A stretch of 64,000 nt of DNA, from positions 620,001-684,000 of the forward strand of contig NZ_FQWW01000003.1 of assembly GCF_900129795.1 (NCBI RefSeq). The letters run 5' to 3'. The notes beneath the pieces were generated by a model. The model saw only the letters and a list, made by a program, of their open reading frames with translations, ran no database searches and was not told the DNA's origin. Both the position numbers and the translations under genes were made by a program. The DNA comes from Flavobacterium sp. CF108. Lineage in GTDB: Bacteria > Bacteroidota > Bacteroidia > Flavobacteriales > Flavobacteriaceae. This document shows, piece after piece, positions 8,167-62,995 of the stretch. Position 1 is the stretch's first letter. Each line of letters opens with the position of its first letter.

Positions 8167-8187
8167 GTAATTTTTAATTATTGATCT

Positions 8188-8294: not shown

Positions 8295-8304
8295 TAAACT
8301 AAAC

Positions 8305-9018
8305 TTAATTCGGCGTTTCATTAAAAAACACAACACTATGGCAAGCGACAACTGCAGCAGTTTCTGTTCGCAAACGTGTATTTCCTAAAGTTACCGGCTG
8401 ATATTTATTTTCGATGGCCAAAGCTATTTCTTTTTCTGAGAAATCTCCTTCGGGACCTATTAATAAAGTTACATCTTCATTTGGCTTTAAAGTTTCCTTC
8501 AACGATTTTTTATCGGTTTCTTCACAATGTGCAATAAATTGTAAACCCTGATTTTTTTGTTTTATGAATTCCTTAAACGAAATAGCATCATTTAATTTTG
8601 GAAGAAACATTTCATTTGATTGTTTCATTGCCGATAAAATAATCTTTTCAAAACGCTCTAAATTAATTACTTTTCGTTCAGAACGATCGCAGATAATAGG
8701 CGTAATTTCCTGAATTCCAATTTCTGTAGCTTTTTCTAAAAACCATTCAAAACGATCATTCATTTTGGTTGGTGCAACGGCTAAATGCAGGCGAAATTTT
8801 GGTTCTGGAGATTTTGTTATTGAACGAACGGCAACAATACATTTATTGTCTGAAGCCAGCGTAATTTCAGTTTCAAACAATAAACCAAAACCGTTTGTAA
8901 CATGCAGGATATCTGAATCTTTCTTTCGTAAAACTTTTATAATATGTTTGCTTTCTTCTTTATCAAAAGAAAAACTCTCGGTTGATTCGTCAATATCAGG
9001 ATTGTAAAATAACTGCAT
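8305..9018 (-). CDS. rsmE: 16S rRNA (uracil-1498-N3)-methyltransferase RsmE
   Basis: 237-residue SPOUT methyltransferase that methylates U1498 of 16S rRNA. It has an N-terminal PUA-like domain (about 1-65, with KEESKHIIKVLRKK) and the C-terminal knotted SAM domain. The diagnostic motifs are LLIGPEGDFSEKEI, LGNTRLRTETAAVVA, and the basic stretch IICDRSERKV that contacts RNA. Length is typical. The gene starts 2 bases after the tsaD stop, so the two are co-transcribed. Confidence 0.95.
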   Translation of the reverse strand: MQLFYNPDIDESTESFSFDKEESKHIIKVLRKKDSDILHVTNGFGLLFETEITLASDNKCIVAVRSITKSPEPKFRLHLAVAPTKMNDRFEWFLEKATEIGIQEITPIICDRSERKVINLERFEKIILSAMKQSNEMFLPKLNDAISFKEFIKQKNQGLQFIAHCEETDKKSLKETLKPNEDVTLLIGPEGDFSEKEIALAIENKYQPVTLGNTRLRTETAAVVACHSVVFFNETPN

Positions 9019-9020
9019 AA

Positions 9021-43572: not shown

Positions 43573-44376
43573 ATGAATAAAGTCGTTTTAATTACAGGAG
43601 GATCATCGGGAATTGGTAAATCTATTGGAGAGTTTTTACATGCAAAAGGTTTCGTTGTATATGGAACGAGCAGAAACCCTGAAAAAGTTTTAAATTCAGT
43701 TTTTCCATTAGTTGCTTTAGATGTCCGAAATGCTGATTCCATTAAAACAGCTGTTGCAAAAATTATAGAAAGTTCTGGAAGATTAGATATTGTAATTAAC
43801 AATGCTGGAGTTGGAATTACGGGACCTTTGGAAGAAATTCCGATGGAAGAAATTAAAAACAATTTTGAAACAAATTTCTTTGGTCCAATTGAAGTAATGA
43901 AAGCTGTTTTGCCACAAATGCGTGAGCAAAAATCAGGTTTGATTATCAATATCACGTCTATTGCCGCTTATATGGGATTGCCTTACAGAAGTGTTTATTC
44001 GGCTTCAAAAGGAGCTTTAGAATTAATTACCGAAGCCTTAAGAATGGAAGTAAAGCAATTTGGAGTTGAAATTACGAACGTTGCTCCGGGTGATTTTGCA
44101 ACTAATATTGCATCTGGACGTTATCATGCGCCAGTTTTAAAAGGTTCTGCTTACGAAAAAGTATATGGAGATACACTTTCCACCATGAACGAACATGTTG
44201 ATGCAGGAAGTAATCCAAATGAAATGGCGGAGGCGATTTTTAAAATCATACAAAAAGACAAACCAAAAATTCATTACAAAGTGGGTGTTTTCATGCAGAA
44301 ATTTTCAATTATTTTGAAACGCACACTTCCGGATAAAGTCTATGAAAAAATGCTCATGAATCATTATAAATTATAA
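43573..44376 (+). CDS. SDR family oxidoreductase
   Basis: 267-residue classical short-chain dehydrogenase/reductase. Nucleotide-binding TGGSSGIGKSIG at the N-terminus, the NNAGVG motif, the catalytic Ser in INITSIAAYMG, and YSASKGALE with the catalytic Tyr and Lys. A Thr-Ser-Arg following the second strand (YGTSRNPEK) favours NADPH. The substrate is unknown. The small membrane protein gene begins 4 bases downstream and is probably translationally coupled. Confidence 0.9.
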   Translation: MNKVVLITGGSSGIGKSIGEFLHAKGFVVYGTSRNPEKVLNSVFPLVALDVRNADSIKTAVAKIIESSGRLDIVINNAGVGITGPLEEIPMEEIKNNFETNFFGPIEVMKAVLPQMREQKSGLIINITSIAAYMGLPYRSVYSASKGALELITEALRMEVKQFGVEITNVAPGDFATNIASGRYHAPVLKGSAYEKVYGDTLSTMNEHVDAGSNPNEMAEAIFKIIQKDKPKIHYKVGVFMQKFSIILKRTLPDKVYEKMLMNHYKL

Positions 44377-44380
44377 AAGA

Positions 44381-44593
44381 ATGAATGAAATTTCTACGTA
44401 TTTCCCTATGATTTTTTGGATTCTAATTATTGTTGTTGTTGTTTGGATAGTAATTCGCAGAATACTTTTACAAATAAGCGATAAGATAAACAATGCAGAA
44501 GTTTATAAAGAAAATACTTTAAAAGTTCTGGAAGAAATTAGAGATGAATTGAAAGAATTAAATAGAAATAATTCTAAAAGTAGTGTTTTTTAG
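44381..44593 (+). CDS. small single-span membrane protein of unknown function
   Basis: 70 residues: one strong helix (about 8-27, MIFWILIIVVVVWIVIR) and then a charged amphipathic helix (about 30-62, AEVYKENTLKVLEEIRDELKELN) that could form a coiled coil in the cytoplasm. It sits 4 bases behind the SDR gene, which supports it being translated. No family recognised. Confidence 0.65.
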   Translation: MNEISTYFPMIFWILIIVVVVWIVIRRILLQISDKINNAEVYKENTLKVLEEIRDELKELNRNNSKSSVF

Positions 44594-44660
44594 CTACGTG
44601 TATTTTTTTGATATATCTTTTTTAAAGAAAATATTTGCAAAAAGTATTGCATTATTTAAA

Positions 44661-44682
44661 AATGTAAAAAATACACTTATTT
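44661..44682 (+). promoter_or_regulatory. 22-bp motif shared with the sugar kinase upstream region
   Basis: Second copy of the AATGTAAAAAA-ACACTTATTT motif, 21 of 22 bases identical to the one before the BadF-type kinase gene. Here it is about 155 bases before the aldolase start. Confidence 0.35.
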
Positions 44683-44739
44683 TTAACATATAATTTGAAA
44701 ATGGTTTTAATTTTAAAAAGGTTATTGATATTGATTTCG

Positions 44740-44747
44740 TAATTTTG
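44740..44747 (+). promoter_or_regulatory. -7 promoter box of the aldolase gene
   Basis: TAATTTTG matches TAnnTTTG. It leaves a 5' leader of roughly 80 bases. The nearest TTG upstream is 12 bases away, too close for a normal -33. Confidence 0.45.
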
Positions 44748-44836
44748 CAGCTAGAATTTCTTCAGATATTTTGTTTGAAGAAAGATTTACAAAAATAGAA
44801 ATACGAAGAAACCATTTTTAATTAAACAAATAAATT

Positions 44837-45493
44837 ATGAAATTTTTTATTGACACAGCTAACCTAGATCAAATTAAAGAAGCACAAGCTTTAGGTGTTT
44901 TGGATGGTGTAACGACAAATCCGTCATTAATGGCGAAAGAAGGAATTACAGGAAAAAATAACATTTTAAAGCATTATGTTGACATTTGCAATCTTGTAGA
45001 AGGTGATGTAAGTGCTGAAGTAAACGCTCTTGATTATGATGGAATGATCAAAGAAGGTGAGGAATTAGCTGAATTACATGACCAAATCGTTGTAAAATTG
45101 CCTATGACTAAAGAAGGTGTTATGGCTGCAAAATATTTTTCTGATAAAGGAATTAAAACTAACGTAACTCTTGTTTTCTCTGTAGGACAAGCTCTTTTGG
45201 CTGCTAAAGCCGGAGCTACTTATGTTTCTCCGTTTGTGGGTCGTTTAGATGATATTTCAACTGACGGATTAAACTTAATTCAGGAAATTAGAGAAGTTTA
45301 CGATAACTACGGTTACGAAACTCAAATCTTAGCTGCTTCAGTACGTCACACAATGCATATTGTAAATTGTGCTAAAATTGGTGCTGACGTTATGACTGGG
45401 CCTCTTTCTGCAATTTACGGATTGTTGAAACACCCGTTAACTGATATCGGTTTAGCTCAGTTTGTTGCTGACTTCGAAAAAGGAAACAAGTAA
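44837..45493 (+). CDS. fructose-6-phosphate aldolase / transaldolase (TalC-MipB family)
   Basis: 218-residue TIM-barrel class I aldolase of the small transaldolase subfamily. N-terminus [31 protein letters not shown] with the substrate Asp and Asn; the Schiff-base Lys lies in IVVKLPMT; then [20 protein letters not shown] and [22 protein letters not shown]. In Bacteroidetes this short form usually works as transaldolase in the pentose phosphate pathway. Sequence alone does not separate it from fructose-6-phosphate aldolase. Codon use looks optimised, suggesting high expression. Confidence 0.9.
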
Positions 45494-45514
45494 TCCTTAG
45501 ATACTTATAAAAAT

Positions 45515-45550
45515 TAAATCGTCTTTTTTCTAACGAGAAAAGACGATTTT
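45515..45550 (+). terminator. intrinsic terminator after the aldolase gene
   Basis: Stem TAAATCGTCTTTT against AAAAGACGATTTT (12 of 13 positions paired) with a 10-base loop, ending in a long T run. Confidence 0.88.
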
Positions 45551-45583
45551 TTTTACTTTTATATGAAACTTAAATTGTTGATT

Positions 45584-46081
45584 ATGAAAGTGATATTGAT
45601 AATTTTGTCTTTTTTTGCCATTAGTATTTCAATAAATGCACAGACGGCTGAAATATTGAAAAGTGTAAATGATGCCGGCGATGTGGCCACATTTGAATTA
45701 GATTGTTCTGTAGCATTTCAACCTTTAGCAAAAGGGCTTCGGTATAATATTACAAGGCATGAATTCAAAGGCCCTGAAATGAAAAATTCGTATAGACTGC
45801 TTCTTGTCATGGACGGATTTTATTCTAAAACCTTAAATAAAGAAATGACGATTTCGGCTGTTTTAAGCAATGGAACTGTTATCCAAGCAAAGAAAATTAT
45901 TGAAGATGATGGCTTTTTTGATGGAGCTTGTACTTTAAAAATAAAAGATCCGCAAGCGCTTGCAGAAGAGAATATTGAGAAAGTTATTGTTCATGCAGAT
46001 AAAGATGTTGTCTATCAAATATCAGAACAAAACAGGGAGATTTTTAAGAAGAACCTGAGTAATGTTATTAATGCTAAATAA
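45584..46081 (+). CDS. small secreted protein of unknown function
   Basis: 165 residues from MKVILIILSFFAISISINAQ, a clean signal peptide; a start seven codons upstream is equally possible. The mature part contains two Cys (LDCSVAF, GACTLK) and is predicted mixed alpha/beta. The end is rich in charged residues. No family recognised. It stands alone between two terminators, so it is its own transcription unit. Confidence 0.7.
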   Translation: MKVILIILSFFAISISINAQTAEILKSVNDAGDVATFELDCSVAFQPLAKGLRYNITRHEFKGPEMKNSYRLLLVMDGFYSKTLNKEMTISAVLSNGTVIQAKKIIEDDGFFDGACTLKIKDPQALAEENIEKVIVHADKDVVYQISEQNREIFKKNLSNVINAK

Positions 46082-46132
46082 AAGGGATTAAGGTTCTGAG
46101 TTGCTAAGATACTAAGGTTTTCTTTTGTGAAT

Positions 46133-46178
46133 AAAAAAATCCAAATTCCTATTGTAAAATTGGAATTTGGATTTTTTT
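46133..46178. terminator. intrinsic terminator, bidirectional
   Basis: Stem ATCCAAATTCC / GGAATTTGGAT flanked by A and T runs. It ends the MFS transporter transcript on the minus strand and the small secreted-protein transcript on the plus strand. Confidence 0.88.
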
Positions 46179-46199
46179 TATATTGTTATTTCTAAAATT

Positions 46200-47666
46200 T
46201 TAGTGACCGCCGCCTTCGCTTTGAACGTGGCTGATTCCTTGTCTTTTTAGTATTTTAGGGCAATAGAAACCGTAGAATCCTAAATAAGCAAAACCAATAA
46301 GTGGTACTATATAAGAGAAATGTGTCCATGTAATTCCTAGAATTCCTCCTGGGCTTGTTACATCAAGATCACAAATACTTCCTTGAACTAAAGGAATAAC
46401 TCCTCCTCCAAGAATCATCATAATTAAGAATGAAGATGCTTTTCCTGTATTTTTACCTAAACCTGCAATCGCTAAATCGAAGATTGAAGGCCACATGATT
46501 GACAAGAATAATCCACCAGAAATAAAGAAGAATTTAGCAATTGAAGGGTCTGGCCAAGCTAATCCGGCAACCATCATTAATAATCCTGATATTCCGAAAA
46601 GCATTAAAGTTTTTCCGGCATTTTTTCCTCCAACAAAACTTACAGCTATAAATAATAAAATCCAGATTGGGTAAATGTAGAATGAAGAAACGTCGTGTGC
46701 AGCAAAAATGTTAGCTCCAATGATTACTCCAAATGCTAAAGCTGGTACAATGAATTTTAAAGCCGTATTTACTAAAGTAGAAGTGTTGAAAACGTTAACA
46801 CCACCATTCCAACGTCCAATCATTAAACTTCCCCAATAAAGGGCGATAAATGGTGCGATTGCATCTTCTAATACATTTCCGAATTCTGCTGTATGTAATA
46901 AAGCTGGTAAATTACTAATGATAGTTACCTCAGTTCCTACATAAATAAAGATACCTAACATTCCTAAATATAATTGTGGGTAATCAAGAATGTTGAATTT
47001 TTCGTGTGCTGTTTTAACAACTTCTTCCTCTTTTTCCGGATCTTCGATTTTAGAGAAGTTCATGAAAACTGCCACTACGATAAAAGCAAGACCAAGAATG
47101 ATAAATGGCAATTTAATATCTTCTAAAGAAAGAGATGTGTTTTTGTTATCTCCCATTCCGAATAAAGCAATACCTAAAAGAATTGCTCCAATAGTAGTTC
47201 CGAATGAGTTGATACCTCCTGCTAAAGTTAAACGGTGCGCTCCTGTGGCAGGACTTCCCATTTTAATTGCTAAAGGATTTGCTACAATTTGTTGAATTGA
47301 AAAACCTAAACCAACAGTAAACAAAGCGGTTAAAAAGAAAGGGAAACTTTCCATTGTTGCAGCCGGAACGAATAAAAATGATCCAACAGCCGAAAGAATT
47401 AAACCAGCTGAAAGTGTTTTTTTATAACCGAATTTTTGCAGTACATCTAATTTTAAAGAAACTAAAAAGAAGATAATTGAACCTACAAAATATGCAGCAT
47501 AAAATGCCCAGGCTACTAATTGTGATTGTACCTGAGATAAAGTAAATACTTTTTTGAATACTGGAATCAGGATATCATTGGCAGAACCAACAAAACCCCA
47601 AAAGAAGAAGACGATTATCAATGAGATAAACTGTCCCCATTTGGTTTGAACATTTTCTGAACTCAT
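46200..47666 (-). CDS. MFS sugar transporter (FucP-like, probable GlcNAc permease)
   Basis: 488 residues, about 12 membrane helices, of the fucose/glucose-galactose-type major facilitator group: FFFWGFVGSANDILIPVFKKVF in TM1, GLGFSIQQIVANPLAIKMG, and RLTLAGGINSFGTTIGAILLG. The cytoplasmic loop DPEKEEEVVKTAHEKF and the His-rich end (HVQSEGGGH) are divergent. The neighbouring chitin genes and a shared upstream element point to GlcNAc or (GlcNAc)2 as substrate, like NagP; this is by context. It is in its own transcription unit, divergent from no gene but behind the lytTR gene on the same strand, with a promoter region of its own. Confidence 0.85.
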   Translation of the reverse strand: MSSENVQTKWGQFISLIIVFFFWGFVGSANDILIPVFKKVFTLSQVQSQLVAWAFYAAYFVGSIIFFLVSLKLDVLQKFGYKKTLSAGLILSAVGSFLFVPAATMESFPFFLTALFTVGLGFSIQQIVANPLAIKMGSPATGAHRLTLAGGINSFGTTIGAILLGIALFGMGDNKNTSLSLEDIKLPFIILGLAFIVVAVFMNFSKIEDPEKEEEVVKTAHEKFNILDYPQLYLGMLGIFIYVGTEVTIISNLPALLHTAEFGNVLEDAIAPFIALYWGSLMIGRWNGGVNVFNTSTLVNTALKFIVPALAFGVIIGANIFAAHDVSSFYIYPIWILLFIAVSFVGGKNAGKTLMLFGISGLLMMVAGLAWPDPSIAKFFFISGGLFLSIMWPSIFDLAIAGLGKNTGKASSFLIMMILGGGVIPLVQGSICDLDVTSPGGILGITWTHFSYIVPLIGFAYLGFYGFYCPKILKRQGISHVQSEGGGH

Positions 47667-47771
47667 AATTGTAATTAAGGTTAATTTTTTAATAAAATTG
47701 TTTTTTGAAGACCGTAAATATATTTGTTACATGAATCAAAAAAAAATTATTGATCGAAAATAATGTTAAAT

Positions 47772-47799
47772 TTAAACGAACAACCTTATTTATTCAACA
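47772..47799 (-). promoter_or_regulatory. third copy of the shared chitin-locus element, upstream of the MFS gene
   Basis: On the minus strand, TGTTGAAT, 10 variable bases, then GTTCGTTTAA, the same order and spacing as in front of the two susC genes. The second half-site 21 bases on is degenerate (TTTTCG). It lies 106-133 bases before the transporter start. Confidence 0.6.
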
Positions 47800-47836
47800 A
47801 TGTGTTAATTTATATAGAGTTAGAAATGTTAAAGTT

Positions 47837-48538
47837 TTATTCGAGAATTCTGTTTTTTACGTCTTTACTATAATTTCTTCCTATTGGAATTGTGTAAGAC
47901 TGAATTTGAATACGGTTTCCTTCGATAGATTTGACTTTATTTAAGGCAATAACGTAGGATTTATGGATGCGTAAGAAACGATCTGCCGGTAATTCTTCAG
48001 ATAATGAAGTCAAAGATTTATGCGTAATATAGGTTTTATCAGGCGTTACAACCTTTATATATTCTTTCATTCCTTCGATAAAAAGAATTTCTTCAATATT
48101 AATTTTCATCATCTTTTTATCAACCTTAATAAAAATATGCGAATCGCCTTTGGCTACATCAATTTTAATATTGTTTTTTAAATTGAATTCGGTTGTAATT
48201 TTATTAATGCATTTGATAAATCTCGGAAGCGGAATAGGTTTTACTAAATAATCTAAAACATCAAGATCATAACTTTCTGCAGCAAATTCTCTAAAAGCGG
48301 TTGTGATGATAACTTTGGTTTTGTTTTCGATTAAGCTTATCAGCTCAAAACCAGTCATCATGGGCATATTAATGTCTAAAAAAACGGCATCTACAGAAGT
48401 GCTGTTTATGAAATCCAGAGCTTCTAAAGAATTATTGAATGTGCCGATAACTTCAAAATCTGTAAAATTGTTAAAATAATTCTGCAGCACTTTGATTGCT
48501 AAGGGTTCATCATCAATCAGTACACATTTAATTTTCAT
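47837..48538 (-). CDS. LytTR family response regulator
   Basis: 233 residues. Receiver domain (about 1-120) with Asp9-Asp10, phospho-acceptor Asp55 in AVFLDINMPMM, Thr in IITTAF and the Lys in LVKPIPL. The C-terminal LytTR DNA-binding domain (about 135-233) shows IFIKVDKKMMKINIEEILFIEG and FLRIHKSYVIALNKVKSIEGN. Such regulators bind pairs of 9-bp direct repeats with centres about two helical turns apart; exactly such a pair is seen before both susC genes. The gene overlaps the sensor kinase gene by 11 bases, so they form one operon and presumably a two-component pair controlling the chitin locus. Confidence 0.93.
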   Translation of the reverse strand: MKIKCVLIDDEPLAIKVLQNYFNNFTDFEVIGTFNNSLEALDFINSTSVDAVFLDINMPMMTGFELISLIENKTKVIITTAFREFAAESYDLDVLDYLVKPIPLPRFIKCINKITTEFNLKNNIKIDVAKGDSHIFIKVDKKMMKINIEEILFIEGMKEYIKVVTPDKTYITHKSLTSLSEELPADRFLRIHKSYVIALNKVKSIEGNRIQIQSYTIPIGRNYSKDVKNRILE

Positions 48539-49580
48539 TATGGATAGGTATTTGCAAACGAATTATATAGTAATTCAGTTTTATTTTGTCTTTTAAACTG
48601 AAATTATTCTTGTAAATTAATTTTAGTCTCTTCTTTGTGTTAACTAAACCAATGCCGCCTTTTGACTTAACATTTTGTGAAATTACAAAATTATTTAAGA
48701 TTTCAAAGTCTAACATTTTATTGTCGATAACTTTACAATTGATTTTAATTTTAAAGTTATTATTATTGACTCCGCCATGTTTGAAAGCATTTTCGACCAA
48801 TGAAATAAATATTAAAGGTGGAACCACAATGTCTTCAATGTTTGATTCTAAATTTACGGTAACTTCCACATTTTCAAAACGAAGCTTTTCAATTTCAATA
48901 TAATTTTGAATGTAATCGATCTCTTTTATCAGCGGTACAAACTTGGTTCCTTTTACATCATACAGCACATATTCCATCAAATTAGAAAGCTTGATAATTA
49001 CATCCGGAACTTTATCTGAAGATTCTAAAGATAAGGCATAAAGATTATTTAATGTATTGAAAAAGAAATGCGGCTGAATTTGATTTTCGAGATATTTCAG
49101 CTTGATTTTAAACTGATTTTCTCTCAGAGATCTGTTTCTTTCCCTTTCGCGAAGCCAGGTTAAAGTCAAGTACACTGATGACGCCATTGCCAAAACGTAC
49201 AATTCACCAATACAAACTGCTACAATATGGTTGATTTCAAAAGGATGGTATTCTCTGTTGGCTTCCGGCCAGATATTTTCGGATATAATATAATAGGTAA
49301 GCGCAGTTTTTAATAAATAAATTCCAAAAAGGCTTACAATTAGTGCGAGTGTATAGGTTATATATTTTTGTTTAAGAACATATTTTGGGACTAAAACGAA
49401 AAGGTTAAAATATACTAATGGTATATGAAGCGAAAACTCAATTAAGTTCGATTTAAACGAATACGGATAGTCGTTAAAGTAAGCGCCCCATCGTAAAAAG
49501 TTGAGAGCGAAATAAGAACCCCAAAACCAGATATGATTTTGCAGTTTTATGTCAAATTTTAGTTTTTGAATTTCGTTCAA
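48528..49580 (-). CDS. LytS/YehU-type sensor histidine kinase
   Basis: 350 residues. About four membrane helices (near 20-35, 45-65, 75-100, 118-142) with almost no extracytoplasmic domain. Then the His_kinase domain with phospho-acceptor His171 in ENQIQPHFFFNTLNNLYAL, and an ATPase part with LVENAFKHGG (N box) and GGIGLVNTKKRL (G box). Lack of a ligand domain suggests sensing within the membrane or through a partner such as the transporter. It is translationally coupled to the LytTR regulator. No copy of the shared susC element was found in its own upstream region. Confidence 0.92.
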   Translation of the reverse strand: MNEIQKLKFDIKLQNHIWFWGSYFALNFLRWGAYFNDYPYSFKSNLIEFSLHIPLVYFNLFVLVPKYVLKQKYITYTLALIVSLFGIYLLKTALTYYIISENIWPEANREYHPFEINHIVAVCIGELYVLAMASSVYLTLTWLRERERNRSLRENQFKIKLKYLENQIQPHFFFNTLNNLYALSLESSDKVPDVIIKLSNLMEYVLYDVKGTKFVPLIKEIDYIQNYIEIEKLRFENVEVTVNLESNIEDIVVPPLIFISLVENAFKHGGVNNNNFKIKINCKVIDNKMLDFEILNNFVISQNVKSKGGIGLVNTKKRLKLIYKNNFSLKDKIKLNYYIIRLQIPIHNEN

Positions 49581-49716
49581 CTTTTTTTAACGTTTTGTTA
49601 TTATTTGTAAAGCTTTGTAATTACTGTGCAACTTTACACAATTACTGGCTAAATCGCAATTCTTTTGAATAAAATTTTGTAAAAAAAGCTAATTAATATC
49701 TTATTTAAATAGGATA

Positions 49717-49810
49717 ACGTTTTCGTATAGCATAATGTTGAATGTTTTATGTCGTTCGTTTAACAAATTTAACTGTTCGTATAAAATATTTTTTTTAACA
49801 CTCCCTTAAC
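49717..49810 (+). promoter_or_regulatory. conserved element upstream of susC1 with LytTR-like repeats
   Basis: Begins with ACGTTTTCG, then TTGAATGTTTTATGTC, then GTTCGT at 49754, a second GTTCGT at 49775 (start-to-start 21 bp), an AT-rich block with eight T, and TTAACACTCCCTTAA. It aligns without gaps to the region upstream of susC2. The 9-mers GTCGTTCGT and ACTGTTCGT resemble LytTR half-sites. No standard TAnnTTTG box is found, which fits an activator-dependent promoter. Confidence 0.7.
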
Positions 49811-49841
49811 AATAAATTTATCGCTTAACTAATCAAAAACC

Positions 49842-52800
49842 ATGATAAAAATGAAACAAATTATGTTAATCCTTATGATTGTCTTTACGGCGCAATTGTC
49901 TGTTGCGCAGGTAAAAACGGTCAAAGGTTTGGTAAGCGATCAAAATGGTCTGCCGCTGCCGGGTGTAAGTATTCTTATTCAAGGTACAAAAACGGCAAGT
50001 CAAACCGATTATGACGGTGTGTATACGATTCAGGCATCTGCAGGAGATGTTCTTGTGTTTTCGTATATCGGTATTAAAACTAAAACTGTAACAGTTGGAT
50101 CTTCTGCAACTGTAGATGTTGTGCTAACTCAAGACGCACAAAATTTAAATGAAGTTGTTGTTACAGCGTTAGGGATTAAGAGACAGAAAAAAGAATTGGG
50201 TTATGCCGTTCAGGATGTAAAAGGAGACCAGTTAAACAAGGTTATTACGACCAATGTAACTACAGCTCTATCAGGAAGAGTTGCGGGTGTTGATGTTTCT
50301 ATACCAGCTACGGGTGTTGCAGGAAGTACAAGGGTTATTATTAGAGGTATTTCGAGTATTGGTGAAAGCAATCAGCCTCTTTATGTGGTTGATGGAGTTC
50401 CTATTGACAACTCTGGTTTAAATAATGATCAGGCTGCAACAAGTAAATGGTTTGACGGTCGTGATAACGGAGATGGAATCTCTGGAATCAACCCAAACAA
50501 CATCGAAAGTTTAACGGTACTTAAAGGAGCTGCCGCTGCGGCTTTGTATGGTTCACGAGCTTTGAATGGTGTAATCTTAATTACTACTAAAAAAGGAACT
50601 AAAGGAAAACTTCGCGTAGAATTAACAAGCGGGGTGAATTTTGACCGAGTAAATGCTAAATATTCAGATTACCAAAGTGAGTATGGTACAGGATCAAATG
50701 GTGCACTGCCGGATCCTACAAGAGCCCCAACAGAAATTTACGGCTATACTACAAATGCCTGGGGACCTAAGTTTTCTGAATCAGTAGGGCAGCAGGTAAA
50801 AATATTTGATGGCTCAATGAAACCGTATGCAAAAGTAAACAACAACATTCAGGATTTCTTTGGAACAGGGTTTACTACAACAAACGGAATTGCTATTTCT
50901 GGAGGAAATGACAGCGGATTTGTACGTTTTGGTTACAATAACCTGAAAAATGATGACGTGGTTCCAGGATCAGGTTTAGAAAGAAACGATGCAACATTGA
51001 ATGCTACTTTAAGATCAGAAAAATTTACTTTGGATGCTAACGTAAATTATATTGCTGAAAACACGAATAACAGACCAGGTTTAGGAGATTCTCCTAATAA
51101 CGTAGGATATTCATTAAGCGGATTAGCTCCAAACATTGATCAGGCTTGGCTGAAAAATTATAAAAATAATGATACAGGTCAGATTTATCCATGGAACAAC
51201 AATGTTTATTTGCTGAATCCATATTTTGTGACAGAAGAAAATCATAACTCATCTGTAAAAAATCGTTTTATAGGAAATGTTACAGGGACGTATCAGTTGA
51301 AAAAATGGATTGCTCTTACTTTTAGGACAGGTCTTGATACTTATGCTTTTAGTGCAAAAGATTTCATGGCAGCCGGAAGTACCTGGCCAGGAAGAGATGA
51401 AGGATATCTTGGTTTAAACAATATTAATGTATCAGAAATGAATACAGATATTATTGCGACTTTGAGCGATATTAAACTAGCTAAAGATTTAACTTTTTCT
51501 GGGATTTTAGGTACAGCAAGAAGAGATTTTAGAAGAGAACAAAATTCAAGATTTGGAACAAAAATTATTGAACCGGGTACAGAGTACATCAGTAATTTTG
51601 TGAATAAAACTGAAAATGCTCCGGTTGAAACAAAAACTAGAACAAACTCAGTTTACGGATCTACAAAATTAGATTATAAAGGATATTTATATGCTGAGTT
51701 TACAGGAAGAAATGATTGGTTTAGTGTGATTTACAGCGGTGATGAAAGTGCATTCTATCCTGCGGGTTCATTAGGGTTTGTATTCTCAGATGCGTTTAAT
51801 ATTCAAAACGATACTTTCTCGTATGGTAAGTTTAGAGCATCTTGGGCACAGGTTTCGAATTCACCGGGAGCTTATAAAAATGCGTTGAACTATACTACAT
51901 TTTCTTCATACGACGGACAAAGTGTTGTAAACATTAAAAATACTGCGGCACCAAACCCTAACTTAACCTATCAGTCAAAAACAGGAGTTGAGTTTGGAGT
52001 TGAAACTGCTTTCTTCAAAAACAGATTAAAAGCAGATATTACAGTATATCGTGAAGATACATCAGATCAAACACTTGATTTGCCTTCATCTGCAACATCT
52101 GGATATGAGTTTATTTCTGTAAATGCTGGAAAATTGCGTAACGAAGGGATCGAGATATTCTTATCTGGTACTCCAATAAAAACAAATAGTTTTGAATGGG
52201 GGATCGACTTGAACTTCTCAAAAAACAAAAACTCAATTCTTTCATTGCATCCAGATATTAATACTTACACTATTTCTGAAGCTCGTTGGGCTGGAGCGGC
52301 TGTTGTGGCTCAGGTTGGCGGACAATACGGAACTATTATGGGTAGAGATTTCTTAAGAAATGAAAATGGAGAAAAAGTAGTAGCTGCAAATGGTTTACCA
52401 TTATTTACAGATGAAAAAGTAGCTTTAGGAAAAGGACTTCCTGACTGGGCTGCCGGTTTAACTAACAGATTTACTTACAAAGGAATTACACTTCAGTTCT
52501 TGATCGATATGAAATTTGGTATGGATGTATACTCTATGACAAATTCATTAGCTGCAACAAAAGGACTTTTAGATGTAACGACAGAAGGCAGAGATGCGTA
52601 TAACCATGCAAGAGCAGAAGCCATTGCTAATGATCCTAACTTTAGCCAGTCTACATGGGTTCCTACAGCAGGTTATGTTGCAGAAGGAGTTGTAAACACA
52701 GGAACAGCAGCTAATCCGGTTTATGTTAAAAATACAAAACCTATTAACCCTCAGGATTACTGGAATACGGTATTCAACAATTCACCAGCACCATTTGTTT

Positions 52801-53048
52801 ACGATGCATCTTATGTGAAATTAAGAGAGATAAGTTTAGGATATACTATACCATCAAGCGTTTTTGGTAATTCAAAAATAAGTTCAATTTATGTATCGGC
52901 ATTTGCAAGAAACTTATTGACTTTCAATAAAGATCTTCCAAATATTGACCCTGAGTCAATGTATACTTCTGGAAACGGACAAGGTTTTGAATATGGCTCA
53001 TTACCATTTAGACAATCGTACGGTTTTAATATTAAAGTTGCATTCTAA
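49842..53048 (+). CDS. SusC-type TonB-dependent transporter 1
   Basis: 1,068 residues. Signal peptide about 1-24 (LMIVFTAQLSVAQ). A carboxypeptidase-regulatory-like domain (about 25-110: VKGLVSDQNGLPLPGVSILIQGT) is followed by the plug with NEVVVTALGIKRQKKELGYAVQ and the SusC signature NIESLTVLKGAAAAALYGSRALNGVILITTKKG. The 22-strand barrel follows and ends in Phe (NIKVAF). It imports chito-oligosaccharides across the outer membrane with its SusD lid, powered by TonB; substrate by context. The N-terminal TonB box region lacks an anti-sigma domain, so control is through the two-component system rather than FecR/sigma. Confidence 0.93.
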   Translation: MIKMKQIMLILMIVFTAQLSVAQVKTVKGLVSDQNGLPLPGVSILIQGTKTASQTDYDGVYTIQASAGDVLVFSYIGIKTKTVTVGSSATVDVVLTQDAQNLNEVVVTALGIKRQKKELGYAVQDVKGDQLNKVITTNVTTALSGRVAGVDVSIPATGVAGSTRVIIRGISSIGESNQPLYVVDGVPIDNSGLNNDQAATSKWFDGRDNGDGISGINPNNIESLTVLKGAAAAALYGSRALNGVILITTKKGTKGKLRVELTSGVNFDRVNAKYSDYQSEYGTGSNGALPDPTRAPTEIYGYTTNAWGPKFSESVGQQVKIFDGSMKPYAKVNNNIQDFFGTGFTTTNGIAISGGNDSGFVRFGYNNLKNDDVVPGSGLERNDATLNATLRSEKFTLDANVNYIAENTNNRPGLGDSPNNVGYSLSGLAPNIDQAWLKNYKNNDTGQIYPWNNNVYLLNPYFVTEENHNSSVKNRFIGNVTGTYQLKKWIALTFRTGLDTYAFSAKDFMAAGSTWPGRDEGYLGLNNINVSEMNTDIIATLSDIKLAKDLTFSGILGTARRDFRREQNSRFGTKIIEPGTEYISNFVNKTENAPVETKTRTNSVYGSTKLDYKGYLYAEFTGRNDWFSVIYSGDESAFYPAGSLGFVFSDAFNIQNDTFSYGKFRASWAQVSNSPGAYKNALNYTTFSSYDGQSVVNIKNTAAPNPNLTYQSKTGVEFGVETAFFKNRLKADITVYREDTSDQTLDLPSSATSGYEFISVNAGKLRNEGIEIFLSGTPIKTNSFEWGIDLNFSKNKNSILSLHPDINTYTISEARWAGAAVVAQVGGQYGTIMGRDFLRNENGEKVVAANGLPLFTDEKVALGKGLPDWAAGLTNRFTYKGITLQFLIDMKFGMDVYSMTNSLAATKGLLDVTTEGRDAYNHARAEAIANDPNFSQSTWVPTAGYVAEGVVNTGTAANPVYVKNTKPINPQDYWNTVFNNSPAPFVYDASYVKLREISLGYTIPSSVFGNSKISSIYVSAFARNLLTFNKDLPNIDPESMYTSGNGQGFEYGSLPFRQSYGFNIKVAF

Positions 53049-53059
53049 AAAAAGAAATT

Positions 53060-54583
53060 ATGAAATTTAAACAAATAATTATAGCCGTACTCACATTGTT
53101 TATTGCAGTAGGCTGTACCGAAAATTTTGACGAACTGGAAAAAGATCCGGTTGCGTTGTCTGCAAATCCAGCTGGGCAGCTTACGTTTACCCAATTGTGT
53201 ATGTCGGGTGACGGATTTTACCAATGGAGAACCAATTTAATTTATTCAGGAGGTTTTGTGCAGCATTATGCGGGAGCATGGAACGTGACTGAGTTTGGAA
53301 GCAAATTCAAAAAAGATGATGGTTATGCAACTGCTCTTTGGAGAAACGGTTACCAAAACGAATTAAAAAACGTAGTTGATATCCTTGAAAAAACAAACGG
53401 AGATCAATCAGCCGTAAATATGAATGCTGTTGCTAAAATTATGAGAGTAATGGTGGCACAGCGTATTACAGATATTTACGGAGATATTCCTTATTCTGAA
53501 GCCGGATTAGGTTTCTCAAAAGGAATTGTAACGCCTAGATATGATACACAGGAAGAGATTTATATGTCATTCTTTCATGATTTAGAAGAAGCTTATAATC
53601 AGTTAAATGCTAATGGCGGATCTGTAAAAGGTGATTTGTTCTATGCTGGAGATATCACTAAATGGAAAAAATTAGCCAATACTTTAAGACTTCGTTTAGG
53701 AATGAGAATTTCGGAGATTAAACCGGCAGAAGCAGAAAAACAAGTAAAAGCTGCTTTAGCGGCAGGTGTTTTTACAAGTAATGCTGATAACTGTATTATG
53801 AAACATTTAGATGCAACTTTTAATGATGATCCTGCTTCTATTGATTTTAGAGGAAATGGATTAGCGTATGCACTTGTTGGTAATGAAAATGGGGATCATT
53901 TTAGTACTTTGGTAATTGACTTTTTAAGAGACAACGGAGATCCAAGATTACCAATGTATGCAACTCCAAAAACAACAAGCAGTCTTGCTTGGGGAGCACC
54001 ATTGCAGCCGGGTGAAACACCATATGAAGGTGTAAAGCCAGGACTTTTTCAATGGGAAGTTCCAATGGGAGCAAGCTCAACATCTGGTATTCAATCTTAC
54101 TTTAAGCAAAAAACAACACCATTTTTACACGTAAGTTATTCAGAATCTCAATTGTTACTTGCAGAAGCTGCATTTAGAGGCTGGGTTGCAGGTTCTGCAG
54201 CAGACTATTACAAAAAAGGAGTTGAAGCAGGTATCAAACAATTAGAGATTTATGGAGCGACACCTGCTACACAAGCAGCGATCGATACCTATTTAAATGC
54301 TAAACCATTAGTTGCTGGACAGGAGTTAAAACAAATTTCAACACAGCTTTGGATTACTTATATCTTTAATAGTATTGAAGCCTATTCAAACTGGAGAAGA
54401 ACAGGATTCCCGGTATTGATTCCAATTACAAACCCTGATTCTGAAACAAACGGAGTTACACCAAAACGTTTGTACTATCCTAATGATGAGATGCAGAAAA
54501 ATGAGAAAAACTATAAAGAAGCATTATCCAGAATGGGAGGAACAAATGACTGGTTGAATAAAGTTTGGTGGGATGCAAACTAA
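53060..54583 (+). CDS. SusD-type glycan-binding lipoprotein 1
   Basis: 507 residues, lipobox AVGC at the N-terminus followed by TENFDELEKDPV. It belongs to the SusD/RagB-like group 2 with helical TPR-like core (RVMVAQRITDIYGDIPYSEAG; LANTLRLRLGMRISEI) and a C-terminal RRTGFPVLIPI block. It closes the barrel of the SusC protein encoded 11 bases upstream and binds the sugar on the cell surface. Translationally coupled to susC1. Confidence 0.92.
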   Translation: MKFKQIIIAVLTLFIAVGCTENFDELEKDPVALSANPAGQLTFTQLCMSGDGFYQWRTNLIYSGGFVQHYAGAWNVTEFGSKFKKDDGYATALWRNGYQNELKNVVDILEKTNGDQSAVNMNAVAKIMRVMVAQRITDIYGDIPYSEAGLGFSKGIVTPRYDTQEEIYMSFFHDLEEAYNQLNANGGSVKGDLFYAGDITKWKKLANTLRLRLGMRISEIKPAEAEKQVKAALAAGVFTSNADNCIMKHLDATFNDDPASIDFRGNGLAYALVGNENGDHFSTLVIDFLRDNGDPRLPMYATPKTTSSLAWGAPLQPGETPYEGVKPGLFQWEVPMGASSTSGIQSYFKQKTTPFLHVSYSESQLLLAEAAFRGWVAGSAADYYKKGVEAGIKQLEIYGATPATQAAIDTYLNAKPLVAGQELKQISTQLWITYIFNSIEAYSNWRRTGFPVLIPITNPDSETNGVTPKRLYYPNDEMQKNEKNYKEALSRMGGTNDWLNKVWWDAN

Positions 54584-54659
54584 ATAAAATAGCAACCTAC
54601 AAAACATAAAGTTATGCCTAATGAGGTCATATTTTCATTCTAATTAAATTTAAAAAATT

Positions 54660-55685
54660 ATGATAAAAAATAAAGCCTTATTAGGCATCCTTTTTTATAT
54701 AAGTTCTCTTTTTTCAGTATACAGCTGTACAAACGAAAAAGAGCATAATCCAGAAGAATCTAAAACTAAAACAGCAAGAGTCGTTGGATATTTATCCACA
54801 GATAGTTTCAGTAAAATTTCTTCAATACAGTTTTGTAAGCTAACGCATTTAAATATTGCATTTGCAAACCCTGATAAAGATGGAAATATACTATTTACAG
54901 GAGATATTGATGCTGTAGTCAAATACGCAAAATCAGTTAACCCGAATATTATTGTAAGTATCTCATTGGCTGGCGGTGTTATTTCTGAAGAACAGGCTAA
55001 AAACTGGTCGTCATTAATTGATAAATCTGAAAACCGTCCGGCATTCATACAAAATATTCTAAAATTTGTAAAAGACCATAATTTAGACGGTGTCGATGTT
55101 GATCTCGAATGGGACGCAGTAACATCTGGTTACAGCGGTTTTGTGGTTGAATTAAAAAAGAGCCTGGCAGATGATAAAAAACTTCTTACTGCAGCTTTAC
55201 CCAATAGTGTGCGATTTGTAAATATAAATTCGGCAGCATTAAACGCTTTTGATTTTATAAATATAATGGCGTACGATAGTACAGGACCATGGAGTCCGAC
55301 TAAAGTTGAACAGCATAGTTCTTATGAATTCGCAAGAAGCGGAATCGAATTTTGGCATAAACAGCAAAATGTCCCAAGTGAAAAACTTACGCTTGGAGTT
55401 CCTTTCTATGGATATAATTTCACTTTTCCAGAAGTAACAAGTTCAACTTTTGGACAAATAGTCGAGGTTGGAACTCAGTTTGCTGACCAAGACGAAATTG
55501 GAAAAATATATTATAATGGAAGACCCACAATTTCCAGAAAAGTAGAATATGCTGCAGAATATACAGGAGGAATAATGATTTGGGAATTGGCACAGGATTC
55601 TTTTACTGAATATTCTCTATTAGATGTAATTCATAAAAAATATTCTTCTTTAAAATTTAAAACTTCGGGTTTGTGTGGTAATTAA
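54660..55685 (+). CDS. GH18 family chitinase lipoprotein (ChiB-like)
   Basis: 341 residues, single-domain glycoside hydrolase family 18. The lipoprotein signal ends at Cys23 (SVYSC), so it is anchored at the cell surface or in the periplasm. The catalytic motif DGVDVDLEWD covers residues 143-152 with proton donor Glu150; the other conserved pieces are SISLAGG, IMAYDSTGPW and the final GGIMIWELAQD with the Trp of the active-site floor. It hydrolyses beta-1,4 links of chitin or its oligomers by substrate-assisted catalysis. It sits 76 bases after susD1 in the same operon. ATGCCTAAT in the leader can pair with ATTAGGCAT just inside the gene, enclosing the start codon. Confidence 0.92.
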   Translation: MIKNKALLGILFYISSLFSVYSCTNEKEHNPEESKTKTARVVGYLSTDSFSKISSIQFCKLTHLNIAFANPDKDGNILFTGDIDAVVKYAKSVNPNIIVSISLAGGVISEEQAKNWSSLIDKSENRPAFIQNILKFVKDHNLDGVDVDLEWDAVTSGYSGFVVELKKSLADDKKLLTAALPNSVRFVNINSAALNAFDFINIMAYDSTGPWSPTKVEQHSSYEFARSGIEFWHKQQNVPSEKLTLGVPFYGYNFTFPEVTSSTFGQIVEVGTQFADQDEIGKIYYNGRPTISRKVEYAAEYTGGIMIWELAQDSFTEYSLLDVIHKKYSSLKFKTSGLCGN

Positions 55686-55721
55686 ATAGCTCTCTTACAG
55701 CTTTTTAAAATTAATAAGTTT

Positions 55722-55766
55722 TTCGCTTCTTTTTAATTCAATAATTAGAAAGAAGCGATTTTTTTT
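55722..55766 (+). terminator. intrinsic terminator after the GH18 gene
   Basis: Stem TCGCTTCTTT / AAAGAAGCGA, extended inward by AATT / AATT, with a T run. It ends the susC1-susD1-GH18 unit; the 328-base gap after the GH18 gene otherwise holds only the susC2 regulatory element. Confidence 0.85.
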
Positions 55767-55883
55767 ATTTAAATACCAGATTTTTAAATATTTGCTGATT
55801 TTAAATATTTTTTAATGAATTGTAAATTTTTTGAATAAAAATAGTCGTAAATGGGGTAAAATCTGCTTTTAATAGAAACGAAT

Positions 55884-55977
55884 ACGTTTTCGGTTCGCAG
55901 ATTATTGAATGTTTTATGTCGTTCGTTTAAAAATTGTAGCTGTTTGTATAATATATTTTTTTTAACAATCCCTTAAG
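55884..55977 (+). promoter_or_regulatory. conserved element upstream of susC2 with LytTR-like repeats
   Basis: Aligns without gaps to the susC1 element: ACGTTTTCG, TTGAATGTTTTATGTC, GTTCGT at 55921, GTTTGT at 55942 (again 21 bp start-to-start), the eight-T block, and TTAACAATCCCTTAA. The distance from the first repeat to the start codon is 93 bases against 88 for susC1. Confidence 0.7.
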
Positions 55978-56013
55978 AATAATTTTACGTCATAACTAAC
56001 AAAATAAATAAAC

Positions 56014-59000
56014 ATGAAAAAAATTTTCTTAATCTTTATGATTGTTTTTACGGCGCAGGTTTCGCTTGCACAAGTAAAAAATGTTAAAGGTGTGATTACA
56101 GATTCTGATGGGATGCCGTTACCGGGTGCATCTGTTGCTGTACAAGGAGGTCAAAAAGGTGCTACTACCGATTTTGACGGATTGTACTCAATTGAGGTTC
56201 AAAAAGGACAAACATTAGTTTTTAGCTATGTTGGCCTAGAAACACAAAATATAGTTGTAGGCGATGCTGCTACAATTAATGTAAAAATGGGACAAGCAGC
56301 GTCAAATGCATTAAATGAAGTAGTTGTAACTTCATTAGGGCTTAAAAGATCAAAGAAGACTCTTACTTATGCAGCACAAGAGGTTAAAGGTGATGAAGTA
56401 ACAAGAGTAAAAGATGCCAACTTAATGAACAGTTTATCTGGAAAAGTTGCTGGTTTAATTGTTGGGAAAAGCTCAGCTGGAGCCGGTGGTGCAGTAAAAG
56501 TAACTATTCGTGGTAACTCATCTGCTACAAATAACCAGCCTTTATATGTTATTGATGGAATTCCATTATTGAACTCTAACTCTGCTCAGGCTAATCAGGT
56601 TTTTGGTGATACAGCTGGAGGAAATAGAGATGGTGGAGACGCAATCTCAATGATGAACCCTGATGACATTGAATCTATGACAGTTCTAAAAGGAGCTTCT
56701 GCAGCTGCTTTATATGGTTCTCAAGGAGCAAATGGTGTAATCTTAGTAACAACTAAAAAAGGAAAAGAAGGAAAAGTAACAGCCGCTTATAATGCAAGTG
56801 TTTTTGTAGATAATGTGGTTTCTTTACCAGAATTTCAAACTAATTATGGGGCAGCTCCATCATCTGATAAAACTTGGGGTGCTGCTAAGAAATCTCCTGA
56901 CCATGTAAAAGGTTTTTACAACACTGGTTTAACGATGATTAACTCTGTATCTGTAAATGGAGGATCTGATAAAATGACAACTAGCCTTACATATGCAAAC
57001 ACTAAAGTTGATGGAATAATCCCAACAAACGAGTTTAAGAAAAATAACATTGCACTTCGTCAAAGCGTTAAGTTATTTGATGATAAAGTAACTGTAGACG
57101 GTTCGATATCTTATGCAGAGCAAAAGATTATAAATAAACCAACAAATGGGTTGTATTTTAACCCATTGACTGGAGTTTATTTATTTCCAAGAGGAAATGA
57201 TTTTAATGATTACTACAAGAATTTTGAAGTATTCGATCCAGCAAGAAATTTAATGACTCAAAGATGGCCAGCTCAAACATCGGATATTATTCAAAATCCA
57301 GGATGGATCTTAAACAGAAATAGATCTATCGACAAAAATCAATCTTTAATTACTTCTGCAGCTCTTACCTATAAAGCAACTGACTGGTTAAGTATTAAAG
57401 CAAGAGGAGGTTATAATAAATTTTATAATACTTTTGATAAAAGAATGTATGCCGGAACTAATGAAACATTGGCTCCATCTACAGGTAGATATATTTACTC
57501 AGATAGTGAAAGTTCTCAATTGTATGGAGATTTAATAGCTACTATCAATACAAAATTCAATGAAGATTTCTCATTCAGTGCTAACATTGGTACAAGTATT
57601 ACAAAATCTACAATTAATGACGCATATATAAGTGATTCAGGTCAAAAAAATGGATTAATCAATGCGAACTGGTTTAATACAGGAAATTTTGTGTCTGCTG
57701 AAAGAAATGCACACACTATTGGAGGTAAAAAAGAAGTTCAGTCTCTTTTTGCAAGCGCAACTTTTGGCTATAAAGACATGATTTATCTTGATGTAACGGG
57801 AAGAAATGATTGGTCTTCAACTCTAGTAAATACAGATAACATAAGTTTCTTTTATCCTTCTGTAGGTTTGTCTGCAATTCTAAGCCAAATGGTAACATTA
57901 CCAGAAGCAATTAGTTATGCAAAAGTAAGAGGATCTTTTGCTCAGGTAGGTAATGATGTTAATGCTTTTTTAACTTCACCAGTAAATACGCTGGTTGGTG
58001 GTCAAGTTACACCGCCGCTGGTAGGTCCAAAACCTGGAACTTCTTTGAAACCAGAAATGCAAAATTCATATGAATTTGGAACAGAATGGAGATTTTTAAA
58101 TAACAGAATCGGATTTGATTTCACTTATTACAGAAACGTGACAAAAAATCAATTAATTACTGCTCCAGCTCCAATTCCAAATACTACAGGATATACGAAC
58201 TATGCATTTAATGCTGGTCGTATCGAAAATAAAGGTTTTGAAATTACACTTACAGGTAAAGCAATTGAAACAAACACATTTTCTTGGGATCTTGGATTAA
58301 ACTATGCTTCAAACAAAAATACAGTACTTGATTTAGGTACAGGAGCAAATGGTGATGTAAATACTGTTATTTTAACAAATGGAGATCCAAATAGCTACAG
58401 ATATGTTTTAAAAGTTGGAAAACCTTTTGGTGAAATTCAAGGAAAAAATATTTTAAGAAATGCTCAAGGTCAAATGGTACTTGATGGTGTTGGTGCTGCG
58501 GCTAAGATTCAAAAGACTGATTGGGTAGATTTTGGAAGCTCAAATCCTGATTTTATGCTAGGTTTTTCAAACTCATTCAAATACAAAAAGATATTCTTAA
58601 ATGTTCTTATCGATGGTCGATTTGGAGGTAATGTAATGAGCATGACTGAAGCAATGCTTGATTCTTATGGTGTTTCTAAAGCTTCTGGTGCTGCAAGAGA
58701 TGCTGGTGGAGTTAAAATAAATGCAGTAGATTCTAATGGAAATGCAGTTACTACAATGAGCGCTCAAGATTATTATAGTTCAGTTGGAGATAGAGCTGGT
58801 GCTACAGGAGAATATATGTACAAAGCGACAAATATTAAATTAGGTGAACTATCGTTAGGTTACACTTTTGATTTCAGCAAAACCTCAATTTTCAATGCAG
58901 TGAATGTTTCTCTTGTTGGTAAAAACTTATTTTTCTTCTACAAAGATGCTCCGTTTGATCCAAACGTAACATTAAGTTCTGGAGAAGGATTACAAGGTGT

Positions 59001-59061
59001 TGATATTTTTGGAATGCCTTCAACAAGAAGTATAGGTGTTAATTTAAATTTAACTTTCTAA
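56014..59061 (+). CDS. SusC-type TonB-dependent transporter 2
   Basis: 1,015 residues. Signal peptide about 1-20 (FTAQVSLAQ), regulatory-like domain [23 protein letters not shown], plug signature [33 protein letters not shown], and a barrel ending in NLNLTF. N-terminal sequence is close to SusC1, but the barrel differs throughout and has long Ser/Thr-rich loops, so it probably takes a different chain length or form of chito-oligomer. Partner SusD2 is encoded 156 bases downstream. The transcript is controlled from the element shared with susC1. Confidence 0.93.
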
Positions 59062-59217
59062 CTTATAAAAAAAACACAAAACCTTTTGGTTGTTGTAAGA
59101 TGATGTTTGTTCTCAGAATGTTGAATGTAGAAAAGAAACGAACAATTAACCTTAAATAAGAATAGGGTAGCTTATAAGACAATAAAAATGTTTTTAAATA
59201 ACAATAAAAATTCACAG

Positions 59218-60795: not shown

Positions 60796-60823
60796 AAAAA
60801 ATAAGATTTTAAGTTTGGTTAGT

Positions 60824-60859
60824 AAACGGTATAAGAAATGCAAATTGCTTATACCGTTT
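60824..60859. repeat. inverted repeat between susD2 and the deaminase gene
   Basis: Perfect 12-bp arms AAACGGTATAAG / CTTATACCGTTT with a 12-base loop. There is no T run after it, so it is better read as an mRNA processing or stabilising hairpin, or an operator, than a terminator. Confidence 0.75.
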
Positions 60860-60897
60860 CAAAAACCAAAATTGTACATACCAAAAAAAGAAAAAAA

Positions 60898-62838: not shown

Positions 62839-62995
62839 AGTTGTTTTTTTTTAGATTCGGGTGAGAGCGAATCAAATTTCAAAATTCAGATGGACCTCAA
62901 AGCGATAAGTGAGGTAAGCAGAAGTCTTTCTGAGTTTTGTTTTTTTCTAATTTAAATGGATGTTTTAGAAAAGCATCTGACCAAAAAAATTAAAA

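Follow-up and report, generated by a model that had tools for sequence, protein, structure and literature searches.

The stretch of DNA analysed here (hereafter the window; 64,000 nt, positions 620,001-684,000 of the forward strand of contig NZ_FQWW01000003.1, assembly GCF_900129795.1) comes from Flavobacterium sp. CF108. It carries a chitin locus that, set against the locus tags in the main text of PMC5127042, corresponds to the ChiUL locus of F. johnsoniae in gene content and order. Three genes lie on the minus strand: an MFS transporter gene (46200-47666; PF07690, in the ChiUL position of Fjoh_4565), cusR (47837-48538; receiver domain PF00072 and LytTR domain PF04397, both above cut-off, with the phospho-acceptor Asp55 present) and the histidine kinase gene cusS (48528-49580; PF06580). 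On the plus strand, a first unit consists of cusCII (SusC-like, 49842-53048), cusDII (SusD-like, 53060-54583) and the GH18 gene chiB (54660-55685). A second comprises cusCI (56014-59061, SusC-like by its match to CusCII and by ChiUL order), cusDI (SusD-like, 59188-60795), nagB (60838-62838) and a GH20 gene that continues past the window end (62996-64000). The nagB ORF joins a glucosamine-6-phosphate isomerase (deaminase) domain and a PIG-L de-N-acetylase domain in one 666-aa protein. The chiA gene, presumably the counterpart of Fjoh_4555, lies beyond the window end, 472 bases after the GH20 gene in the CF108 genome. GH20 and chiA were assigned by order and sequence. We use the ChiUL names: the SusCD1 and SusCD2 of an earlier note on this DNA are CusCII/DII and CusCI/DI, respectively.

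In F. johnsoniae, the corresponding tags are Fjoh_4565 (MFS), 4564 (cusR), 4563 (cusS), 4562 (cusCII), 4561 (cusDII), 4560 (chiB), 4559 (cusCI), 4558 (cusDI), 4557 (nagB) and 4556 (GH20), and deletion of cusS-cusR abolished ChiA and growth on chitin, a defect that was complemented (main text of PMC5127042). The CF108 genome encodes 22 LytTR proteins; thus, membership in the LytTR family cannot by itself name the binder of any site at this locus.

A Shared Element before Three Transcription Units

The earlier note had described an ungapped conserved block of nearly 100 bases before both susC genes. It is indeed there: positions 49717-49810 align without gaps with 55884-55977 (offset +6167, 80/94 identities), and the flank 49650-49716 reaches only 33/67 identities at the same offset. 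Placed anywhere else in the window without gaps, the block reaches at most 48/94 identities (mean 27.2, sd 4.5). Two places attain this score, and one of them is the MFS promoter, aligned in the same register. Each block contains, as claimed, two repeats spaced by 21 bp: GTTCGT at 49754 and 49775, and GTTCGT and GTTTGT at 55921 and 55942. The exact tandem, GTTNGTTTAA-N11-GTTNGTWTAA, occurs twice in the window, against a shuffle mean of 0.03 at up to two mismatches.

A core, TGTTGAAT-N10-GTTCGTTTAA, is found at 49736-49763 (plus strand), at 47772-47799 (minus strand) and, with one mismatch, at 55903-55930 (plus strand); shuffling the window 100 times yielded no copy at up to one mismatch. The copy on the MFS side thus has the spacing that the earlier note had given it, but it lacks a good repeat at +21 (TTTTCGATCA). 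A LytTR regulator gene, cusR, does stand between the sites. Across the 5.61-Mb genome, the core at up to one mismatch occurs only at these three sites. A single match with two mismatches, on contig C16, lies inside an alpha-amylase-domain coding sequence and was rejected as an additional site. A place on contig C6 matches with three mismatches; the gene for a PPIC-type isomerase begins about 140 bp downstream of it.

Anatomy of the Predicted Module

We compared orthologous loci in a close set (80 loci, CusR 93-100% identical) and a diverged set (30 loci, CusR 73-93% identical; 29 from Flavobacterium and one from another genus). In the window, the predicted CusR operator before cusCII is composed of a weak unit R1 (TAATGTTGAA, 49733-49742), R2 (GTTCGTTTAA, 49754-49763) and, 21 bp after R2, R3 (GTTCGTATAA, 49775-49784), with a predicted -7 element TAAATTTA at 49813-49820, all on the plus strand. 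The arrangement recurs on the plus strand before cusCI, with a weak R1 (GATTATTGAA, 55900-55909), R2 (GTTCGTTTAA, 55921-55930), R3 (GTTTGTATAA, 55942-55951) and a predicted -7 element TAATTTTA at 55980-55987. The predicted operator before the MFS gene, on the minus strand, consists of R1 (CATTGTTGAA, 47793-47802) and R2 (GTTCGTTTAA, 47772-47781), and the predicted -7 element is TATATTTA (47715-47722). The -7-like element, TAHHTTTA, stands at exactly +59 from the GTT of R2 in all three copies. It differs in one base from TAHHTTTG, the -7 consensus of F. johnsoniae; according to PMC6847099, 4-5 nt often separate this consensus from the start site. We infer a start site near +71. Relative to it, R2 would span roughly positions -71 to -62 and R3 roughly -50 to -41, adjoining the -33 region; the repeats stand just upstream of the -35/-33 region of the predicted promoter.

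This position of the -7-like element is kept among relatives. In the close set, TAHHTTTR lies exactly at +59 in 112/119 cusC and 80/80 MFS promoters (192/199 together), and in the diverged set in 28/31 promoters, the background being 0.0018 per position. Promoter logos (109 unique cusC rows and 58 unique MFS rows) give a near-invariant cusC pattern, TTGA-N12-GTTNGTTTAA-N11-GTTNGTWTAA followed by T-rich DNA and TAHHTTTA; the TTGA columns are at 100% in the 109 unique cusC promoters.

The two kinds of promoter differ in register, with two direct repeats of about 21-bp period formed by R2 and R3 at cusC and by R1 and R2, R1 being the weaker, at MFS. When the R2 unit was scanned along 112 unique of 119 cusC promoters and 70 unique of 80 MFS promoters (short-flank or identical promoters dropped), +21 was the only strong place at cusC (12.8; mean -15.6, sd 7.6) and -21 the best at MFS (1.1; mean -16.4, sd 7.4; next -1.6). 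The partner repeat of the MFS copy therefore looks like the unit at -21 (CATTGTTGAA). More generally, TTGAA, or TGTTGAAT, is probably a further upstream unit R1 phased by 21 bp, a reading with moderate support from (i) the -21 score at MFS; (ii) the exact NTTNGTTGAA-N11-GTTNGTTTAA found in 4/25 diverged MFS promoters (L192, L231, L234, L239); and (iii) locus L189, where GTTTGTTGAA is itself the R2 of a cusC tandem.

Conservation across Orthologous Loci

Every cusC and MFS promoter of the close set carries the site: it precedes all 119 cusC starts with 0-3 mismatches to TGTTGAAT-N10-GTTNGTTTAA, and all 80 MFS starts with 0-2. Behind these sites, the cusC proteins range from 55 to 98% identity with whichever of the two in the window is nearer. 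Among cusC genes, about 105 bp including the leader are conserved, up to the start codon, and the GTT lies 83-88 bp from that codon in the 80 loci. The repeats lie in the divergent gap between cusS and cusC, at a fixed distance from cusC that is kept where the gap is longer (e.g., L029, L037, L085). Such constancy fits a site that serves cusC and not the two-component genes, in keeping with the earlier note's expectation that the latter have no site of their own.

The diverged set shows which gene the site follows. In 26/30 loci the tandem is present at up to one mismatch before cusC or nagB; the remaining four (L195, L197, L238, L246) have no copy at up to one mismatch before a regulon gene. 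The site accompanies the first gene of a unit, which is cusC in most diverged loci. Where nagB has no cusCD in front of it, the site lies before nagB (L190, L196, L243), and where nagB stands apart, it lies before both cusCII and nagB (L232, L233). MFS promoters carry the core or the tandem at up to one mismatch in 9/25 cases and are weak in 16/25; in several of the others, a copy with 2-3 mismatches sits about as far from the start. The predicted regulon of three units (transporter, first and second susC operon) holds in that sites precede all three, but it is not closed, as it extends in some relatives to the nagB-first units and to an unlinked TonB-receptor operon described below.

The chiA gene has no conserved upstream copy, the best tandem matches in 25 loci showing 3-7 mismatches. 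Five of these loci, including that of CF108, share a place with three mismatches about 465-500 bp upstream, which is not found in the others. The set of 25 includes one misplaced start (L321) and the second gene of one genome (L324, G158), and six of the 30 genomes searched had no chiA match. Without a conserved site, the CusR dependence of chiA may be due to read-through from cusCI across the GH20 gap, or be indirect.

Coding sequences and promoters do not always diverge together. In 13/80 close loci, the MFS protein is 49-51% identical to the window's and the promoter 79-100% identical. CusCI is often about 60% identical behind well-kept promoters, and regulon genes differ strongly even at 100% CusR identity (L013). 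It is as if regulon coding sequences (MFS, cusC; L013-L092) had been swapped behind kept promoters. In a diverged locus (L189, genome G061), an extra tandem at 14382 on the minus strand is followed, 200 bp downstream, by an ORF of 800 aa that contains carbohydrate-binding modules; together with the ChiB-like gene that follows, this ORF is an apparent extra chitinase unit.

Co-occurrence of the Tandem with CusR

Among 199 Flavobacterium genomes, 59 contain CusR at E <= 1e-80 and 140 do not. The exact tandem is present in 52/59 of the former and in 0/140 of the latter, and its reversed control in 2/199 genomes. Linkage within one locus and relatedness of the genomes inflate these figures, so that the Fisher p of about 1e-40 is not a probability of function. 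Three of the seven CusR-containing genomes without the exact tandem have it at one mismatch before cusC or nagB, and the rest are more diverged. The looser core at up to one mismatch occurs in 26/199 genomes, 24 with CusR and two without (G126, G171), against 6/199 for its reversed control. At up to one mismatch, the tandem is found in 88/199 genomes, with and without CusR. Among the matches listed, much of this is GTTGGTTTAAGTTTKATTAATGTTTGAATAA, which in CF108 falls within the ribosomal protein L1 gene (L188:5308) and was rejected; because such matches swamp the one-mismatch search, the tally was limited to the exact tandem. Had the block recurred in front of numerous unrelated susC genes with no LytTR gene nearby, this would have spoken against the earlier note. 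It does not do so: in the CF108 genome the core at up to one mismatch is unique to the locus, and the exact tandem tracks CusR across the 199 genomes.

The 75 exact tandems include 68 located 1.2-10.3 kb from cusR and seven that are unlinked. Five of the seven represent one promoter type (G053, G057, G095, G107, G108; L181-L185), before an operon beside pnp that encodes a 233-268 aa protein, a TonB receptor and a DUF4249 protein. A -7-like TAGTTTTA stands at +59 in all five, and only those five of the 199 genomes have orthologues of the receptor at an identity of at least 88%. Using tblastn with two query proteins, we found no CusR-like gene in nine stretches around unlinked sites from five genomes, and one other, non-CusR, LytTR gene, in G053. 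The CF108 homologue of the receptor (60% identical) has no tandem at up to three mismatches and is preceded by a response-regulator gene of another system. The two remaining unlinked tandems look like chance matches: one lies inside an ORF (G186) and the other before no same-strand ORF of at least 150 aa (G153).

Does the association extend beyond the genus? A family search found CusR relatives at E <= 1e-65 in 76/349 genomes (CF108 and two other Flavobacterium included), and 17 distant loci were fetched, plus G411 (82%). At 50-55% CusR identity, in other genera, a CusS relative adjoins in 16/17 distant loci, and many are also near cusCD, nagB and GH20 relatives. The upstream regions match GTTNGTTTAA poorly, and 21 bp is the best of the lags from 12 to 32. 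The mean lag-21 score of 12 of the 17 loci (L255, L258, L259, L260 and L266, with no clear syntenic first gene, left out) was reached in 0/300 shuffles; the repeat is clear by score in three of the 12 (L252, L261, L267), and in others it can be made out by eye only. A co-drift of site and regulator beyond the genus appears moderately supported.

Proposed Mechanism and Alternatives

We propose, with a probability of roughly 0.84, that the shared element is the operator-promoter module of the CusS-CusR (LytTR) system and would drive the three units through binding of CusR. CusS would sense chitin breakdown products and phosphorylate CusR. CusR would then bind direct repeats of the GTTNGTTTAA type, each of 10 bp and phased by 21 bp; two of them, or possibly as many as three, would be occupied. 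They adjoin, on its upstream side, the -33 region of a promoter with the -7 element TAHHTTTA. By recruiting RNA polymerase there, it would switch on the MFS gene, cusCII-cusDII-chiB and cusCI-cusDI-nagB-GH20, and chiA would perhaps be reached by read-through. Activation of these promoters by phosphorylated CusR is the simplest account. The tandem is very probably the docking site of CusR, named as the putative binder on the grounds of linkage, co-occurrence and the mutant of a relative. We infer direct binding, phosphorylation dependence, activation, the ligand and a behaviour of the strain like that of F. johnsoniae.

What else could act on these promoters? Another of the 22 LytTR proteins might bind the repeats, or a second conserved box might be the real control. 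The box reads ACGTTTTCG before both cusCII (49717-49725) and cusCI (55884-55892), on the plus strand, and is among the features that the cusC copies have in common beyond those of the MFS copy. Of the close cusC promoters, 118/119 have CGTTTTCG in the 60 bp upstream of R2, and of the diverged ones 23/26 have it in the 40 bp upstream of R2. In nearly all close cusC promoters, the AACGTTTTCG box stands about 37 to 28 bp before R2, often as CGTTTT-N3-AAAACG (46 of the 111 unique promoters among 119); it resembles a LacI-type operator. The unlinked promoters have CGTTTTCA in this place in four of five cases and CGCTTTTCA in one. As a genome-wide motif, AACGTTTTCG is uninformative alone, since at one mismatch it matches fewer places (60) than its reversed control (205). 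The number of LytTR genes and the near-constancy of the box at cusC thus speak for a different regulator. Yet CGTTTTCG is found in 0/80 MFS and 0/5 nagB promoters, where the repeats are present, the exact tandem is restricted to genomes with CusR, and deletion of cusSR abolishes ChiA in F. johnsoniae (main text of PMC5127042), so that we consider control by a different regulator unlikely.

Somewhat less probable still is shared ancestry without a specific regulator, the cusC upstream regions being remnants of a duplicated promoter and leader that descent or recombination has preserved. It would account for a conserved stretch of about 105 bp that takes in the leader while cusC coding sequences vary, and for the fading of the MFS copy in diverged loci. 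However, the repeats and the +59 element recur without the rest in the MFS and nagB promoters, which belong to genes unrelated to cusC; the unlinked operon also has the module; and the exact tandem is missing in each of the 140 genomes that lack CusR. An RNA element in the 5' leader, such as a riboswitch or attenuator, would fit conservation up to the start codon but is highly improbable, because the predicted -7 element stands downstream of the repeats, which would not be transcribed from it, positions 44000-64000 have no Rfam match, and the block folds no better than shuffles (z = 0.44).

Comparison with Known Systems

An operator bound by phosphorylated CusR would have parallels in E. coli. 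YpdA/YpdB (target yhjX) and YehT (target yjiY) are systems of a membrane histidine kinase and a LytTR response regulator; YpdB binds two 10-bp direct repeats, and its D53E variant is constitutive (sections of PMC4847170 on these systems). The YpdB sites, GGCATTTCAT-N11-GGCATTTCAT, have the same geometry as the CusR-type tandem, the spacer being counted on the oligonucleotide given in PMC4847170. The earlier note's appeal to a LytTR geometry of 21 bp agrees with this 11-bp spacer and with the 11-13 bp spacers reported for LytTR sites in the part of PMC6193735 that deals with them. In contrast to YpdB and YehT, the repeat letters are different here, several operons of one catabolic locus would be served, and the predicted promoter is of the Bacteroidota type.

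In the LRS systems, LytTR repeats measure 9-11 bp, are separated by 11-13 bp and adjoin the -35/-33 region on its upstream side, with examples from Bacteroides (PMC6193735, same part). As characterised there, an LRS pairs a LytTR regulator with a membrane inhibitor, is autoregulated and has its repeats before its own regulator operon. Here, a receiver-LytTR protein, CusR, is coupled with a PF06580 kinase and the site follows cusC, not cusS; with a histidine kinase as the partner of CusR, the system falls outside the LRS class. Comparative genomics has likewise placed direct-repeat operators of HTCS and SusR regulators before susCD operons of Bacteroides (PMC3878776, in its treatment of these regulators). 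An HTCS, however, is a single hybrid protein with an AraC-type domain, whereas CusS and CusR are separate and CusR has a LytTR domain, so that they do not belong to that class either. The main text of PMC3878776 does not use the word LytTR.

The F. johnsoniae ChiUL has the same gene order and two-component pair as the CF108 locus, and its description predicts regulation by CusS/CusR (main text of PMC5127042); the cis element and the limits of the regulon are added by the present analysis. The words promoter and LytTR are absent from that main text. In the open-access literature searched, Fjoh_4564 is mentioned only in PMC5127042, and no publication was found that connects LytTR with a binding site at susC. 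The locus, the need for the two-component pair and LytTR tandem-repeat operators in general are known; we found no earlier record in the same literature of this regulon's operator or its two registers, nor of the extension to the unlinked receptor operon and the units led by nagB.

A ChiUL-type locus with a genetically known pair thereby gains a concrete sequence as candidate operator, and a regulon that can be tested. It also offers a LytTR alternative for susCD loci, for which hybrid regulators are the usual description. Short and specific as it is, the tandem could serve to predict which Flavobacterium operons are induced by chitin; across the family, the way its letters drift along with the regulator would be a natural experiment on LytTR-DNA recognition.

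CusR without a Kinase Partner

In one diverged locus with the operator before nagB (L190, genome G017), the CusR at 7973-8674 is an orphan: in that genome, the best hit to CusS shows 29% identity. Its Asp55 is replaced by Glu, the only residue other than Asp at this position among 186 loci, some of which repeat one genome. The D55E orphan is possibly a constitutive switch.

A broader joint reading, which we offer as speculative and on balance doubtful, would combine a three-slot array read in two registers, a second regulator at cusC and this constitutive switch. R1, R2 and R3 would follow a period of 21 bp before a fixed -7 element, R1 and R2 being read at the transporter and R2 and R3 at cusC and nagB; a second regulator would act on cusC promoters through the AACGTTTTCG box; and in at least one lineage (G017), loss of the kinase and the change of CusR Asp55 to Glu may have made the switch constitutive. 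If the two-register array were true, one regulator could give different strengths or a different order of induction. In a further locus (L196, genome G177), the CusR at 8463-9170, whose genome has no CusS match at E <= 1e-20, retains Asp55.
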